Below are positions 39,340-50,154 of a stretch of 64,000 nt of DNA, piece by piece. This stretch comes from Candidatus Dadabacteria bacterium. GTDB lineage: Bacteria; Desulfobacterota_D; UBA1144; Nemesobacterales; Nemesobacteraceae. The notes under the pieces are model-generated. The model was not told the origin of the DNA. It did no database searches and worked only from the letters and a program-made list of their open reading frames with translations. Position 1 is the first letter of the stretch, and each line of letters starts with the position of its first letter. The stretch covers positions 124,001 to 188,000 of the forward strand of contig VXNX01000005.1 in assembly GCA_009840385.1 (NCBI GenBank), written 5' to 3'. The position numbers and the translations under genes are program-made.

Positions 39340-41226
39340 ATGATAAGCTTGTCGGGAATAAGCCATTCTTTTTTGGGAAAGGATCTTTTCCTGAATCTTG
39401 AATGGAGCATAAAAAAAGGAAGAAAATACGGGCTTGTGGGTCCAAACGGCTCGGGCAAGACCACGCTGCTTGAGATCGTTATGGGACTCCTAGAACCGGA
39501 AAAAGGGGGTGTTTCCGTTCCGGGGGCGTTAACAGTGGGTTATCTTCCGCAGATAATGGATTCACACACGGGCGATCTCACGATCCTTTCGGCGGCCCGT
39601 GCGAGCGACCGCGGAAGCGGTGAAGATAACTCCGAAAAACCCATCCACGAAGCCGAGAAAATCCTTTTCGGACTGGGTTTTACGGGAGAGCATCTCTCCC
39701 GGAAAGTCTCTTCTCTTTCAGGCGGCTGGAAAATGCGGGTTGAGCTCGCGAGGATACTTCTTCTGGAACCCAGCGTACTTCTTCTCGATGAGCCGACGAA
39801 TCATCTTGATATAAAAAGCATCGAGTGGCTTGAAGGGTACCTTGGAAGCTACCGCGGAACCGTGGTTCTGGTATCCCACGACAAATACCTGCTTGACCGC
39901 ATGGTTGACACGATAGCTGAGCTTGACGGCGGGGCGATAAGGGAGTTTCGGGGAGATTATTCTTCTTACCTTGAGAGAAAAGAGCAGATTACGGCTGTCG
40001 CGGAGGCAACCGCGAAGAATCAGGAGAAAAAACTCCGTGCACAGCGCCGATTCATAGAGCGTTTCAGGTACAAGGCTTCAAAGGCGAGGCAGGTGCAGAG
40101 CAGGATAAAGATGCTTGAGAAAATGGAGTCCGTCCCGCAACCCTCAGAGACCCAAAGAACCCTTGAGTTTGATTTTCCCGCTCCCGAGCGCGCGGGACGC
40201 GTGGTTTACGAAATAAGCGATTTCTCAAAAGAGTATGAAACTCCCGGCGGCCCGAGAAACATCGTTTTTCGAGACTGCCCCGCGCTTCGCGTTGAGAGGG
40301 GAGACAGGATAGCGATTACCGGGAGAAACGGCGAGGGAAAAACCACCCTCTGCAAGATGGTGGCGGGCGTGGAGAACTTCTCAGGCCAAAGCCGCCTCGG
40401 TCATAACGTGACTCTCGGCTATTATGCGCAGAACCAGGACGAAATGCTCAATCCGCAGAACACGGTTTACGAAGAGTTCATCGAATCTTATCCTCTTTTC
40501 TCTCAGACCGAGGCGAGAACGCTTCTGGGCTCGTTTCTTTTCAGTGCTTCTGACATAACCAAGAAAGTTTCTGTTCTCTCAGGTGGCGAGAAAAGCCGCC
40601 TGTCCCTTCTCAAGATTCTGGTTTCCCGCTCTAATTTTCTGGTTCTTGACGAGCCCACAAACCACCTTGACATGGCTTCCAGGGAAGTGCTTCGCCGCGC
40701 TCTCGAGGAGTATTCCGGCACCTTTCTGCTGATAAGCCACGACAGGTATTTCATTGACAGCCTCGTAAACAGGATATGGTACGTGGAAGGGGGAGGGGTT
40801 GAGACATTTATCGGTAATTACTCGGAATTTCTCGAGAGAAAGGCCCGCGAATCCAGTAACGAACAGGCGCTCGGCGAAGTGCAGGACGACGAACCGAAGA
40901 AAAAAACCGCAAAGGCCCTTGAGGCCGAGCGGCGCAACCGGCTTTACAGGGAACTTCGAGAAAAGGGGATAGAGAACATGGAGAACTGGAGGCTTCTTTC
41001 GAGAAAGCAGATGGAAAATGCCCTTTTGGATCTCGAGAGCAGAATATCAGAATGCGAGACTGAAAAAGAGGATACGGAAAAGTTTCTTGCGAACCCTGAG
41101 ACTTCCCCCCAAGGCACTAACTGGGAAGAAAAAACAAGGCAGCTTGGCGAACTTGAGGAGAAGCTCTCTGCTCTTTACGGCAGGTGGGATGAGGTGAGCG
41201 AGCACATGCGCAAGAATTTCACCTGA
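39340..41226 (+). CDS. ABC-F family ATPase (Uup-like)
   Basis: This encodes 628 residues and no membrane segments. There are two ABC domains: Walker A GPNGSGKTTL and GRNGEGKTTL, signatures LSGGWKMRVELARI and LSGGEKSRLSLLKI, each followed by LDEPTNHLD. They are separated by the interdomain linker rich in Lys/Arg. A C-terminal coiled coil (about 540-620) resembles Uup. ABC-F proteins act on ribosomes or, for Uup, on structured DNA. Antibiotic resistance cannot be inferred. Confidence 0.88.
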   Translation: MISLSGISHSFLGKDLFLNLEWSIKKGRKYGLVGPNGSGKTTLLEIVMGLLEPEKGGVSVPGALTVGYLPQIMDSHTGDLTILSAARASDRGSGEDNSEKPIHEAEKILFGLGFTGEHLSRKVSSLSGGWKMRVELARILLLEPSVLLLDEPTNHLDIKSIEWLEGYLGSYRGTVVLVSHDKYLLDRMVDTIAELDGGAIREFRGDYSSYLERKEQITAVAEATAKNQEKKLRAQRRFIERFRYKASKARQVQSRIKMLEKMESVPQPSETQRTLEFDFPAPERAGRVVYEISDFSKEYETPGGPRNIVFRDCPALRVERGDRIAITGRNGEGKTTLCKMVAGVENFSGQSRLGHNVTLGYYAQNQDEMLNPQNTVYEEFIESYPLFSQTEARTLLGSFLFSASDITKKVSVLSGGEKSRLSLLKILVSRSNFLVLDEPTNHLDMASREVLRRALEEYSGTFLLISHDRYFIDSLVNRIWYVEGGGVETFIGNYSEFLERKARESSNEQALGEVQDDEPKKKTAKALEAERRNRLYRELREKGIENMENWRLLSRKQMENALLDLESRISECETEKEDTEKFLANPETSPQGTNWEEKTRQLGELEEKLSALYGRWDEVSEHMRKNFT

Positions 41227-41285: not shown

Positions 41286-43763
41286 CTAGGGATGGTCCCC
41301 GTAGTAAAAGCGAAGTCGCCATGATTCCAGACTACCTGTATGATCGGCGGCCAGATCAGCAACTTGAATTGTCCATGTGCCGTTAGGTTTTTCTCCGTAG
41401 AACGCGTTGCTCATCAATTGCCAGTCCCGCATTCCGGGAAATTCGTCGAGAATCACATTGAATGGCGCATTCACGATGCTTTCAGTGCCGCTCGGAGAGG
41501 TTAATTTAACACCTAAATCGGAGCCATATCCGTGATTTACTGTGATATCCAGAATTACGGCTTCGATGTTAGCGGTATTTGGTAAATCTGTAACCGTCAG
41601 AGTATGCGTGACTCCAGCGCCGTCTTCGTCTGGAATGGCTAAGGACAAGTTTGAATTATCTGCCGCTGGGAACCATCGGGATTCAACGAATTCCCCCAGG
41701 CTGTTGGGGGTATAGCCGTTTGTCATAATGATTGCATCATCAACGGAGACCGCGCCAAAGCCATACCAGTTGTGATAGGAGTACCCTGCGGCATTTGTCT
41801 GCCAGGCATGTTGCGCTATGTACGGTTTGCCGTTGAAAGCCGCTCGGACTTCTTTTATGTCCGGATCGATTTTTCGTGCCGAAGTAGCCAAGATATGTTT
41901 TACGTCACGCCACGTCAAATCAGGGTTTACGCCAAGCAGGATGGCGATAGCTCCGGAAGTAGCGGGCGCTGCGGATGAAGTGCCGCCAAAACCGCCGAAG
42001 TAATCACCGTCCAAGTTAGATCGATGGTCAGTAGTCAGTGAATTAACGGGAATTTTGCTAAATCCCGCATGAACTCCAATTTGATCCGTGGTGATGATGG
42101 CCGGCTGTTCTTCGCCATCTTCCCCACCCGGAGCAACGACCCATAAATTGGCGCCTGCGCTCGAATAAGAAGACTTGACGTCTCTAGCGTTAAACGCTCC
42201 CACATTAATCAGATAAGGCAGATTCTGGTCTGGATCCGAGTTGCTACCCACGCATCCGATTTCGATATTGATAGGATGCGGATTTTCGCATACGCCGAAT
42301 TCATTGCCCGCCGCCTTTACATAAAGCGCGCCTCGACCAGACCGAAGATCTGTCGTCCCCATTTTCACGAGGTTAACAAAATCTTCTTCTGAATTTTCTG
42401 AGGGCACCTCGGATCCGAAGCTCATATTGAATATATGCGCGCTGGCCGAATCCGGATTGCTGCTGCTTCCCCCTAAACTGCTCAAGAGTTCGGCTTCGAA
42501 ATCAGCCTCGAGGGTGGTGCCAAGATTGAATCCTCGAAGCTTAACGCCCGGTGCCACGCCACGCCCTCCAAGGCCATTGTTTGCCACTGCCGCGGCTACG
42601 CCGGCAACACTTGTGCCGTGATCCCCGAGTACGCTGTGATTAAATGGATCAGTGGGAAACGAACCTGCGCTATTTTGAAAGGCGTAATTAAATGATTTGC
42701 CCTCTTCAACGGTTGCAGCCAAATCGGGATGGCAAATCTCTAGTCCGCTGTCGACGACCGCCAATTTCACACCGTCGCCATTTTGACCGTTGCTAATGGC
42801 TTCGGTCATTTGCAGATCAGCTCCTGCGACGCCATTGTTGTTCGCAAATCCGGACTGTCCGCTGTTTTTTAAATGCCATTGCTCTCTGAATAATGGATCC
42901 TCGGTACCGCTGGCTGCTCTCACCGGCGCTTCACATCGCGTGACTACCTTCCCTTCAGCATTCGTCGCAAATCCAAACAGGAGAACGTTATCAAATATCT
43001 GCTCGATTGCTTCTTCCGGAACCTCGTCTAGATAGACCCTAATATAGTAGGTTTCGTTTGGTGCCAGATTGCTTAACGGCAGACTAAATTCGTAAGGTTG
43101 AGGAAACTTCTCCTCGCCGGAAACAAATGCGGGAATATCGACAATACCGAGCGAATGAACATCGGTTTCAAAATCCATGTCACTTGACCATTCTGCGAAC
43201 AATTTAGTGGGTGCCACGTTTTGATCCGAGAAATTCAACACCACGACCGCAAAATCAATTGACTCTTCGGTAATAATGTACTGCGTGTTCAGGAGTACAA
43301 GGTTGGCCCCATTTTCCTTTGGGGCTTTATCGACGGTCACTGCCTCGCCGTCGATGATGGTAAAACTGATACTGGACATTGTGCCGGCTTTACCGTTTCC
43401 TTCAATTTCACCCAAGCTAACAGTTATGGTTTCGTCGCCCTCCAGATCGAAGTCCCTGAATACGTCGATATCCACGCTTGCGGATGTCGCATTAGGTGGC
43501 ACAATGATGGAATCGGCACTGGCCGTATAGTCAGCGTCTTGCTCTGCTGAACCGGAAAAGTTCAACGGCACCATTAATCTAGTGGATGTGTTTGAATCGA
43601 GTGAGATAAAAACTCGTACCGTTTGGTTTTCAGCTTCCTGAATGTTTGGGGAAGTCGGCGCTACAAGCGATACATTCACTGGGGGTTCTGATTTGTTATT
43701 ACTGCTGCACCCCACACTTGCTAACAGCAAAAATATGAAAGTGAGAGACCTGAGAGATGTCAT
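41286..43763 (-). CDS. subtilisin-like (S8) lipoprotein protease with Calx-beta and P domains, no own prodomain
   Basis: This encodes 825 residues. The lipobox ASVGC gives a lipid Cys19. A Calx-beta-like domain covers about 40-138, with a second beta domain to about 275. The S8 catalytic domain spans about 290-690 with triad Asp338 (AVVDSG), His382 (GDHGTSVAG) and Ser596 (GGTSSAAP), and oxyanion Asn487 (AAGNEF). A C-terminal P/proprotein-convertase domain covers about 700-825. No I9-type prodomain lies before the catalytic domain. The start ATG overlaps the upstream stop as ATGA. Leu and other codons (TTG, TTA) differ from the core genes, suggesting transfer. Confidence 0.88.
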   Translation of the reverse strand: MTSLRSLTFIFLLLASVGCSSNNKSEPPVNVSLVAPTSPNIQEAENQTVRVFISLDSNTSTRLMVPLNFSGSAEQDADYTASADSIIVPPNATSASVDIDVFRDFDLEGDETITVSLGEIEGNGKAGTMSSISFTIIDGEAVTVDKAPKENGANLVLLNTQYIITEESIDFAVVVLNFSDQNVAPTKLFAEWSSDMDFETDVHSLGIVDIPAFVSGEEKFPQPYEFSLPLSNLAPNETYYIRVYLDEVPEEAIEQIFDNVLLFGFATNAEGKVVTRCEAPVRAASGTEDPLFREQWHLKNSGQSGFANNNGVAGADLQMTEAISNGQNGDGVKLAVVDSGLEICHPDLAATVEEGKSFNYAFQNSAGSFPTDPFNHSVLGDHGTSVAGVAAAVANNGLGGRGVAPGVKLRGFNLGTTLEADFEAELLSSLGGSSSNPDSASAHIFNMSFGSEVPSENSEEDFVNLVKMGTTDLRSGRGALYVKAAGNEFGVCENPHPINIEIGCVGSNSDPDQNLPYLINVGAFNARDVKSSYSSAGANLWVVAPGGEDGEEQPAIITTDQIGVHAGFSKIPVNSLTTDHRSNLDGDYFGGFGGTSSAAPATSGAIAILLGVNPDLTWRDVKHILATSARKIDPDIKEVRAAFNGKPYIAQHAWQTNAAGYSYHNWYGFGAVSVDDAIIMTNGYTPNSLGEFVESRWFPAADNSNLSLAIPDEDGAGVTHTLTVTDLPNTANIEAVILDITVNHGYGSDLGVKLTSPSGTESIVNAPFNVILDEFPGMRDWQLMSNAFYGEKPNGTWTIQVADLAADHTGSLESWRLRFYYGDHP

Positions 43764-44326
43764 CGCCACTTTACTCTCGGTCCGCGAACGCGGATGGATG
43801 CTTTCGGTTGTTCGGGAAGTTGTTCCAATTGTTCGATTGCCTCGACGGGGTGGACTGTATCCGGCAGGTCGATAATGGAAAAGCCTAGTTTTTCAAAGAA
43901 AGTAGCTTTCTCGGCACCGATTGCTTTAGAGATTAAATCCAGTTTAGCGTAATCCTCAAGTTCGACACGAATACTGGGAAGCATCTGAGCAAACTTTCGT
44001 TGAGAGGGGACAAAGACGATTCGCGATGATTTGCCTTCGAGAGGGGTTGAGGCCCTAAAAACCTCTCCGTCAAATGAAACGATGTGAACTCGTTGCGAGG
44101 TCGTTTCATACGAACGTCCGCTTATTGGACCGAGTTCCAATTGCATATGCGCAGAAGTCGCCGCGGAGGGCAGCACTACGACTTCACGACCGTCTGTGAT
44201 CATGACCCTAAATTCGTCGGTAATGGACTCCTGAGCTTCCGCAGACATGCCTAGGGCAAGTGTGAAGTAAAGGCACAGCAATCGAAAAGTCCGGTTTCTC
44301 TGAATTTTGAGTGGGTTAGACCGCAT
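43760..44326 (-). CDS. exported protein resembling a subtilase prodomain encoded in trans
   Basis: This encodes 188 residues with a signal peptide (about 12-32, ending SAEA). The C-terminal 80 residues (about 105-185) have the order of a subtilase prodomain: a VELEDYAKLDLISKAIGAEK helix region, a FEKLGFSIIDLPDT strand, and EAIEQLEQLPEQPKASIRV leading to a basic end. It is coupled by ATGA to the S8 protease that lacks a prodomain. The inferred role is intramolecular-chaperone-like folding or inhibition supplied as a separate chain. No family name is proven. Confidence 0.55.
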   Translation of the reverse strand: MRSNPLKIQRNRTFRLLCLYFTLALGMSAEAQESITDEFRVMITDGREVVVLPSAATSAHMQLELGPISGRSYETTSQRVHIVSFDGEVFRASTPLEGKSSRIVFVPSQRKFAQMLPSIRVELEDYAKLDLISKAIGAEKATFFEKLGFSIIDLPDTVHPVEAIEQLEQLPEQPKASIRVRGPRVKWR

Positions 44327-44629: not shown

Positions 44630-44667
44630 GATTGAACCTGCGATTTTCTGATTTCAGGGAGTTTTGG

Positions 44668-46323
44668 ATGAACGCAGCCGCAATAGCGATAGTAGTAATA
44701 GCCCTTTACCTGCTCGGGTACAGGTATTACTCAAAATTTATTTCCGAAAAAGTCTACGGGGTAAAAGACGGGGAACCCACGCCGGCTCACCAGATGAGGG
44801 ACGGCGTGGACTACGTACCCGCCGGCAAGCATGTCCTTTTCGGGCACCACTTTGCGTCCATAGCCGGAGCTGCGCCTATAATAGGGCCGGCCATAGCCGT
44901 GTTCTGGGGATGGGTCCCGGCGATTATCTGGGTCGTGTTTGGAACGATCTTCATCGGGGCCGTTCATGATTTCGGAGCTCTGGTTATCTCGGCTAGAAAC
45001 AGGGGAAGATCAGTCGGAGACCTTGCCGGGATATTCATAAGCCCGCGGGGAAGAACTCTTTTTCTTCTTATAGTCTGCTTCCTGGTCTTTTTCGTGATAG
45101 CGGTTTTCGCTTACGCCATCTCGGTTCTTTTCGTCAGTTTCCCCGCAAGCGTTCTTCCAGTGAACTTCCAGATACTGGTAGCGCTTGTACTCGGGTTTCT
45201 TTTCTACAGAAAAGGGGTGTCCATCCTCTGGCCCTCGATAATCGCGCTTGTGCTTCTTTACTTCATGGTCTGGGCGGGAACCAAGTTTCCCCTAACGATT
45301 CCCGAGGTTATGGGAAGCCAGGTGGTGACATGGGTAATCATTCTCATGGTCTACTCCTTCGTGGCCTCGGTTCTTCCCGTGTGGATGCTTCTTCAGCCGC
45401 GAGACTACATAAACGGCATACATCTTTTCGTGGGTCTCGCGATACTTATAACCGGGATAATGGTAGCGCGTCCTGAGATGCAAGCCCCGGCCATTAACTT
45501 TGTCGCCGACGGACTTCCCGTGCTTCCCTTCCTTTTCATAACCGTGGCGTGCGGGGCGGTAAGTGGATTCCACGGCCTTGTCGCAAGCGGCACCACCTCG
45601 AAGCAGCTTGACAGGATGTCGCACTCAAGATTCGTGGGTTACGGGGGGATGCTGGGGGAGGGTACTCTGGCCATGATAGCCACCCTGGCGGTTGCGGCCG
45701 GGATAGAACGCAGCGAATGGCTTAAGCATTATCATTCGTGGGAATCGGCATCGAGCGGCGGCATAGCGAATTTTGTCATGGGAACCTCAACCTTTCTTAC
45801 CTCAATCCATATCCCCGAGGTGCTCGGAACCACTCTTATAAGCGTGATAGTCATAAGCTTTGCGGCGACTTCGCTTGATACGGGGGCCAGGATACAGAGG
45901 ATTGTTATAGGCGAGCTTGGAGAGGCCTACGGTATCAATGCCCTTAAGAACAGGTATATCGGGGCCTTTTTTGCCATAGTACCGCCCCTTGCGCTTGCAC
46001 TTTTCGCTCAGGTCCCGGGCAAGGGACCCGGATCAGGCGGATTCTTGCTCTGGCCTCTTTTCGGGGCGACAAACCAACTCATAGCCGGAATTACGCTGCT
46101 TCTGATAACCCTTTATCTTAGAAGATTGAAAAAACCGTTTATCTATACTCTTGTGCCGATGGTTTTCCTTGTGGGCATGACTACGGCCTCGATATTCTTC
46201 AACCTTAAGTATTTTCTCGACAACACTCTTCTTTTCAGCCTTTCGGCGATAATGCTTGTTCTTGCCGTCTGGCTTGTTCTGGAGGCCATAGTTGTGTCAA
46301 GAAAGGCCTCGGGCGGAGGATGA
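44668..46323 (+). CDS. cstA: carbon starvation protein CstA family transporter
   Basis: This encodes 551 residues with many membrane helices. I start at the ATG at 44668, with GGGAG 8 bases upstream. The upstream 12 codons from a TTG lack a ribosome site. Family motifs are YRYYSKFISEKVYG, HFASIAGAAPIIGPAIAVFWGW, ISARNRGRSVGDL, GFHGLVASGTTSKQLD and LWPLFGATNQLIAG. CstA-family proteins import pyruvate or peptides when carbon is scarce. No CstA-associated small protein is seen. Confidence 0.9.
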   Translation: MNAAAIAIVVIALYLLGYRYYSKFISEKVYGVKDGEPTPAHQMRDGVDYVPAGKHVLFGHHFASIAGAAPIIGPAIAVFWGWVPAIIWVVFGTIFIGAVHDFGALVISARNRGRSVGDLAGIFISPRGRTLFLLIVCFLVFFVIAVFAYAISVLFVSFPASVLPVNFQILVALVLGFLFYRKGVSILWPSIIALVLLYFMVWAGTKFPLTIPEVMGSQVVTWVIILMVYSFVASVLPVWMLLQPRDYINGIHLFVGLAILITGIMVARPEMQAPAINFVADGLPVLPFLFITVACGAVSGFHGLVASGTTSKQLDRMSHSRFVGYGGMLGEGTLAMIATLAVAAGIERSEWLKHYHSWESASSGGIANFVMGTSTFLTSIHIPEVLGTTLISVIVISFAATSLDTGARIQRIVIGELGEAYGINALKNRYIGAFFAIVPPLALALFAQVPGKGPGSGGFLLWPLFGATNQLIAGITLLLITLYLRRLKKPFIYTLVPMVFLVGMTTASIFFNLKYFLDNTLLFSLSAIMLVLAVWLVLEAIVVSRKASGGG

Positions 46324-49372: not shown

Positions 49373-49726
49373 ATGCATGTAAAAAAAATAGACGATATAG
49401 AAAGCGAGGTCTTGGAGTCGGCCAACGGCGTTTCAAGACAGATGCTCATAGGCCCCGAGGAGGGTCCGAATTTTTCTATGAGAAAGCTTGTCATTGAGCC
49501 CGGGGGCGGCATTCCTGCTCATACAAGTGGTTCCGAGCATGAGCAGTACGTGCTTGACGGCAGGGCAAGGGTCGGAATCGGGGATCAGGTCTATGAAGTA
49601 GCAAAAGGTGACGTGGTGTTTATTCCCGCCGGAGAGCCGCACTGGTATGAAGCTTACGGAGAGGAACCTTTTGAAATTTTGTCGGTTCTGCCGAATAAAG
49701 ACAACGAGATGGTTTTCGTAAAATAG
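49373..49726 (+). CDS. cupin-domain protein, copy 1
   Basis: This encodes 117 residues. It is a single conserved-barrel cupin: motif 1 PAHTSGSEHEQYVLDG supplies His/Glu metal ligands, motif 2 GDVVFIPAGEPHWYEA supplies the last His. The ATG follows GGAGG. The enzyme activity or ligand is unknown. It shares roughly two thirds of its residues with the next gene. Confidence 0.8.
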   Translation: MHVKKIDDIESEVLESANGVSRQMLIGPEEGPNFSMRKLVIEPGGGIPAHTSGSEHEQYVLDGRARVGIGDQVYEVAKGDVVFIPAGEPHWYEAYGEEPFEILSVLPNKDNEMVFVK

Positions 49727-49797: not shown

Positions 49798-50154
49798 ATG
49801 TACGTAAAAAAAGTTAGGGATGTAGAGAGTACGATTATCGGAGCAGGGCAGGGTACTTCAAGGCAGGTTCTCATCAGTCCGGAGGAAGGTCCGAATTTCG
49901 CGATGAGAAAATTTGTTATGCAGCCTGGAGGCGATATCCCCGCTCATACCAACGCTGTTGAGCACGAGCAGTACGTGCTTGGTGGTAAGGCGCGGATTGG
50001 GATCGGAGACGAAGTCTATGAAGTCGAGAAGGATGACGTAGTCTTTATTCCTGCCGGGGTTCCCCACTGGTATGAAGTTGAGGGCGAGGAGCCTTTTGAG
50101 TTTCTGTGTCTTGTACCGAATCTTGAAGACAAGATAGAGCTTATCAATAAATAA
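49798..50154 (+). CDS. cupin-domain protein, copy 2
   Basis: This encodes 118 residues. It is a tandem paralogue of the preceding cupin, with the same metal ligands (PAHTNAVEHEQYVLGG and FIPAGVPHWYEV). No good ribosome site is visible before its ATG, although a -10-like TACACTAC lies just upstream. The duplicate may have diverged in substrate or regulation. Confidence 0.78.
   Translation: MYVKKVRDVESTIIGAGQGTSRQVLISPEEGPNFAMRKFVMQPGGDIPAHTNAVEHEQYVLGGKARIGIGDEVYEVEKDDVVFIPAGVPHWYEVEGEEPFEFLCLVPNLEDKIELINK

Follow-up and report, generated by a model that had tools for sequence, protein, structure and literature searches.

How is a subtilase that carries no prodomain of its own folded and kept silent? 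The question is raised by two genes in a 64,000-nucleotide stretch of Candidatus Dadabacteria DNA (contig VXNX01000005.1; hereafter the window), which comes from a 1.66-Mb metagenome-assembled genome (MAG) and encodes a small exported protein directly upstream of a lipoprotein-type S8 protease (Table 1). The TGA of the small open reading frame (ORF; 43762-43760) overlaps the ATG of the protease (43763-43761), with an in-frame GTG at 43769 as an alternative start. The two genes form a genuine protease system that is conserved as a pair and belongs to the ASP/ORF2 kind, in a variant form apparently occurring mostly in sponge symbionts. We consider it very probable that a kexin-like surface protease and its own prodomain are made here as separate chains, with the prodomain serving, like ORF2 for ASP, as an external chaperone and a temporary inhibitor. 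Computation on sequences or structures is the source of what is described below on the domains, the fold of the prodomain, the pairing and fusion of the genes, the fixed C-terminus, and co-occurrence.

The reference point is ASP of Aeromonas sobria, which has no propeptide and whose gene is followed just downstream by that for ORF2, a chaperone without which active ASP is not obtained; the C-terminal Lys of ORF2 lies at the ASP active site, and ORF2 inhibits ASP with a half-maximal inhibitory concentration of 84 nM (PMC5638518). Provision of a prodomain in trans has been described in detail for this pair, and there are reports of it from four further genera (PMC5638518). The window protease has an intact catalytic triad (D338, H382, and S596), the oxyanion residue N487, and two acidic residues in the S1 loop, D510 and D512, of which D510 corresponds in our own alignment to furin D306 and to subtilisin position 166. 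Domain searches identified no prodomain family on the protease chain, where the Calx-beta domain and a second beta region stand before the S8 domain. Its best relatives in the PDB are 3hjr and 3wqb_A, both of which are ASP (E 1e-80), and the C-terminal P-domain makes it an enzyme of the kexin/furin/ASP type.

The evidence for a prodomain in the small protein comes from its predicted structure and from its family. The AlphaFold2 (AF2) model, computed with 41 homologues, has a predicted local distance difference test score (pLDDT) of 86.6, and its C-terminal domain, with a pLDDT of ~96 over most of its length, consists of a strand (residues 111-122), a helix (127-135), two strands (140-144 and 149-153), a second helix (160-168), and a last strand (176-180). 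Residues 121-171 match the fervidolysin prodomain family PF22148 at an E-value of 0.013, under the cutoff, and the same family is matched by 36 of the 42 homologues (best 6e-6), which is far beyond chance; PF05922 (Inhibitor_I9) was absent among the families matched by the 42 members at E 1. When the model was compared with the PDB by Foldseek, rank 1 was 3wqb_B, which is ORF2 (probability 1.00, target template modelling (TM) score 0.68). A single-sequence PDB search with the small protein gave no match, and neither the small-family profile nor the ORF2-like-family profile reached ORF2 by sequence, so that it was structure alone that did. The small-family profile does align by hhalign with that of 18 ORF2-like proteins, reaching the last residue of both (probability 95.2, E 2.6e-8), and two unlinked members, L091 and L092, match both profiles. 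The Foldseek search with the small protein and the PDB search with the protease thus lead independently to the two partners in a single known complex structure.

Much of a preliminary description of this locus, made by reading the DNA, stands after these analyses, namely the coordinates, strand, and ATGA overlap of both genes, the complete S8 triad that follows a Calx-beta-type start without a prodomain, and the prodomain pattern in the C-terminal ~80 residues of the small protein, where the predicted fold occupies the last 78. Its account of the protease architecture was right as far as it went but did not mention the P-domain.

Related loci show that the partnership is widespread. One scan of a genome collection yielded 80 protease relatives, and in the window-type clade the upstream sequence could be read at 55 loci. 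In 36 of these the small gene lies directly upstream of the protease, and in three (L039, L043, and L046) it is downstream in convergent orientation, so that the pair is not one operon there. In ten loci the two are fused in cis in the order prodomain-protease (L042, L045, L047, L048, L051, L053, L058, L060, L062, and L064), and in four the partner is non-adjacent (L033, L035, L037, and L049), each of these genomes having a single small gene at another place, where no protease adjoins it. No local partner was found at the other two loci, L056 and L080; the genome of L080 holds one small gene plus L035. In the sister ASP-type clade an ORF2-like gene lies beside the prodomain-less protease in 19 of 21 loci (18 downstream and one, L087, upstream), the exceptions being L075, which is cut off, and L078, which is unclear. 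Because the order of the partners varies inside both clades, we do not treat it as defining. The cis/trans state changed at least 2-3 times on the tree. Most homologues appear, from isolate naming, to derive from sponge-symbiont MAG series, and no relatives were found in viral contigs. As separate observations, a different small gene of lipoprotein-like type lies downstream of L054 and L056, and a second protease copy adjoins the first at L069 (7666-9600) and L031 (2-3316).

The two genes also occur together across whole genomes. In the Dadabacteria genus both are present in 4 of 14 genomes and neither occurs without the other, the pair being spread over two contigs in G010. Among the 245 genomes of the order to which L033 belongs, the four with the small family are the same four with a close protease (E <1e-150), and weaker protease matches there are of other types. 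Mirror-tree analysis of the two proteins gave a correlation of 0.91 (0.84 and 0.93 within subclades), a value as high being obtained in 0 of 2000 permutations. Frequent occurrence of each gene alone, which the preliminary description had named as evidence against itself, was not seen in the genus or the order, and a partner is upstream, downstream, fused, or elsewhere in the genome for nearly all loci (36+3+10+4 of 55). Its proposal that the upstream gene supplies the prodomain in trans is supported by this conserved pairing together with the fold, the co-occurrence, and the natural single-chain fusions.

How the partner might engage the enzyme is indicated by where it ends. All 42 aligned free-standing members terminate at one column, with no gap, 28 residues past a conserved Pro in an HP/NP motif, and the four unlinked members have the same 28-residue spacing, giving 46 of 46 free-standing partners. 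The column coincides with the pro/mature junction of the fused forms, which read through it, often as ..RPM or ..VPQ, into a Pro-rich linker; the ORF2-like proteins have one common end column too. A tail bound in the active site like a product would require just such an invariant C-terminal position. Tails ending in Arg or Lys occur at 23 loci, all 23 of which have an S1 loop with an additional acidic residue (DPD, DPE, or DGE; D512 here), as against 0 of 29 with neutral tails. We regard this covariation, perfect though it is in the sponge clade, as suggestive only, because it represents just two changes on the tree, where it is not significant, and because the ASP clade does not strictly follow it. 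The two chains were modeled together for one homologue, L015, whose genes are in frame across a single TGA and were joined as a single chain (pLDDT 78.5, predicted TM score 0.82). With this model Foldseek returned ASP (3hjr/3wqb_A) as its top two matches, and furin and kexin were also found.

Based on these data we propose the following mechanism. Both chains would be exported separately, and in the periplasm the prodomain would template the folding of the catalytic domain, a role expected by analogy with ORF2. The prodomain C-terminus (...VKWR) would then remain bound in the S-subsites as a cleaved product would, with Arg188 as P1, and the enzyme would be silent. The protease would be lipid-anchored through its own N-terminal Cys19, and the soluble prodomain would later be lost or degraded to leave an enzyme active at the envelope surface. 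We infer in this way the dependence on the partner for folding, the inhibition, the site of release, and the surface exposure. The preliminary description had offered folding, silencing, and immunity as possible roles, and sequence cannot separate the three.

Several results weigh against this mechanism or the evidence behind it. The Foldseek match to ORF2 has an E-value of just 0.043, and distance-based mirror-tree correlations are inflated by shared ancestry. No partner is detectable in the genomes of the proteases L056 and L054, the latter being truncated. In the L015 model the tail and linker (residues 160-215) and some catalytic loops have pLDDT values <50, and the tail is placed neither in nor out of the cleft. 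Inhibition without a folding role would be equally consistent with a prodomain fold and a fixed product-like C-terminus, so that the small protein could be a protective, immunity-like inhibitor of the I9 type to a protease that folds without it, and stand-alone propeptide mimics that inhibit independently of chaperone activity are known in SUB1-ProM, POIA1, and yeast IB2 (PMC6993865). We nevertheless think this unlikely, given that nothing else on the protease chain is a candidate prodomain, that the cis fusions put the same domain at the position of a folding prodomain, that an obligate partner would account for the strict co-occurrence, which holds even without linkage, and that the closest characterized pair needs the partner for active enzyme (PMC5638518).

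It is also very improbable that the small protein serves in structure or targeting, for example as a subunit in surface assembly, and has its prodomain-like fold by coincidence. Its extra N-terminal beta domain would suit such a function, but its homology to ORF2-like chaperones, the PF22148 matches, and the in-cis fusions do not. Since both parts form one ORF in related loci, the split could in principle be a decayed or mis-assembled single prodomain-protease gene, arising by frameshift or assembly error. This is extremely improbable, and we rejected gene decay, because each chain has its own signal peptide, with a lipobox on the protease that is not in the fused forms, because dozens of unrelated MAGs show the same split, with the overlap conserved and the C-terminal residue at an identical position, and because some partners are convergent or unlinked. 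A separate prodomain chain acting as chaperone and temporary inhibitor is the reading that we prefer.

Why the prodomain should leave the protease may be connected with lipid anchoring. A lipobox precedes 41 of the 43 scanned split proteases of the sponge-symbiont clade, plus the window protease, and in the remaining two, L034 and L040, the signal peptide ends in AGVC. The chaperones have no convincing lipobox by the same scan, and the fused forms have ordinary signal peptides, with a lipobox-like sequence, itself ambiguous, in 1 of 10. If an N-terminal prodomain were cleaved off, the acylated Cys would go with it, and splitting would therefore permit anchoring. We tentatively suggest, with somewhat more doubt than belief, that prodomain splitting is what allows these subtilases to be lipid-anchored. 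The association of lipobox and split form represents just three changes on the tree, so that independent contrasts are few, and lipidation is not required for a trans arrangement, since ASP, too, is made in trans and yet goes free into the medium. We also note that the ten cis-fused forms are without both the convincing lipobox and the Calx-beta domain typical of most split forms.

The preliminary description had taken stand-alone I9 inhibitors as the nearest precedent, but that place belongs to the ASP/ORF2 pair (PMC5638518; 3wqb), which it did not name. In both systems a propeptide-less S8 protease with a P-domain is accompanied by a separate exported partner with a prodomain fold and a basic C-terminus at a fixed position, Lys in ORF2 and Arg here. 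Unlike that of ORF2, the partner gene here lies upstream with an ATGA overlap rather than downstream, and its product has an added N-terminal beta domain and resembles ORF2 by profile or fold only. The protease here is a lipoprotein with Calx-beta and second beta domains, and the window clade is a sister clade in the tree, with cis-fused and unlinked relatives. What is new is the upstream gene order, the extra beta domain, the recurrent fusion and fission, and the correlation of the split form with lipidation. The stand-alone I9 inhibitors (POIA1, yeast proteinase B inhibitor, SUB1-ProM, and TgMIC5) likewise have a prodomain fold encoded by a separate gene but are not obligately paired, one to one, with a protease that lacks a prodomain. 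The fervidolysin and classical subtilisin prodomains (PF22148, PF05922), to the former of which the small family is related by its matches, are encoded in cis right before the catalytic domain. In clostridial CspB the C-terminal end of the prodomain controls access to the active site, and it also acts in trans on co-expression (PMC3567191), as we propose here, but the natural gene encodes a single chain and the trans form was engineered.

The family of trans prodomains spans Dadabacteria, Gamma- and Alphaproteobacteria, Entotheonella, Opitutales, and Desulfobacteraceae. With its natural cis, trans, reversed, and unlinked versions, the family lends itself to comparative study of what makes a prodomain part from its protease and of lipid anchoring as a possible driver, and it suggests a likely role for many uncharacterized small exported proteins adjoining subtilases in sponge symbionts.

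Table 1. Features of the prodomain and protease genes (window positions; residues numbered within each protein)
Feature	Position	Strand	Evidence
External prodomain/chaperone gene, 188 aa, exported	43760..44326	(-)	ORF; AF2; Foldseek; 42 aligned free-standing homologues
Signal peptide, ~residues 1-31, no lipobox	44234..44326	(-)	AF2 helix 11-26, AEAQ end; lipobox scan negative
N-terminal beta domain, residues 40-106	44009..44209	(-)	AF2 strands between 40 and 106; kept in free-standing and fused forms
C-terminal 78 residues, subtilase-prodomain fold	43763..43996	(-)	AF2; PF22148; hhalign; invariant end column
ATGA stop/start overlap joining both genes	43760..43763	(-)	Sequence; 4/10-nt overlap type common in homologues
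Protease gene, 825 aa (827 aa with GTG 43769), no cis prodomain	41286..43763	(-)	ORF; domain search; PDB alignment
Lipoprotein-type signal peptide to Cys19 (LLLASVG-C)	43707..43763	(-)	Lipobox scan; Cys aligned with L-A-G-C of congeners
Calx-beta domain, residues 39-137	43353..43649	(-)	PF03160, E 1e-5, 26 of 27 bits (1 bit under cutoff)
Peptidase S8 catalytic domain, residues 329-637	41853..42779	(-)	PF00082, E 1e-37; aligned to ASP (E 1e-80) and furin
P-domain, residues 734-819, hallmark of kexin/furin/ASP	41307..41564	(-)	PF01483 (P_proprotein), E 9.3e-19

The nearest relative of the pair is gammaproteobacterial (L011; 63% for the small protein and 77% over the catalytic plus P-domain region) rather than congeneric, and the pair thus apparently moves as a unit. 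Congeners carry it at aspS/sucA or at another site, giving three distinct genomic sites within one genus, and these differing flanks suggest transfer as a cassette. In the window the pair is flanked by genes for an ABC-F type ATPase and a CstA-like protein (39340-41226 and 44632-46323). Farther along, at 49373-49726 and 49798-50154, are two tandem small cupin-type paralogues of ~118 aa each.
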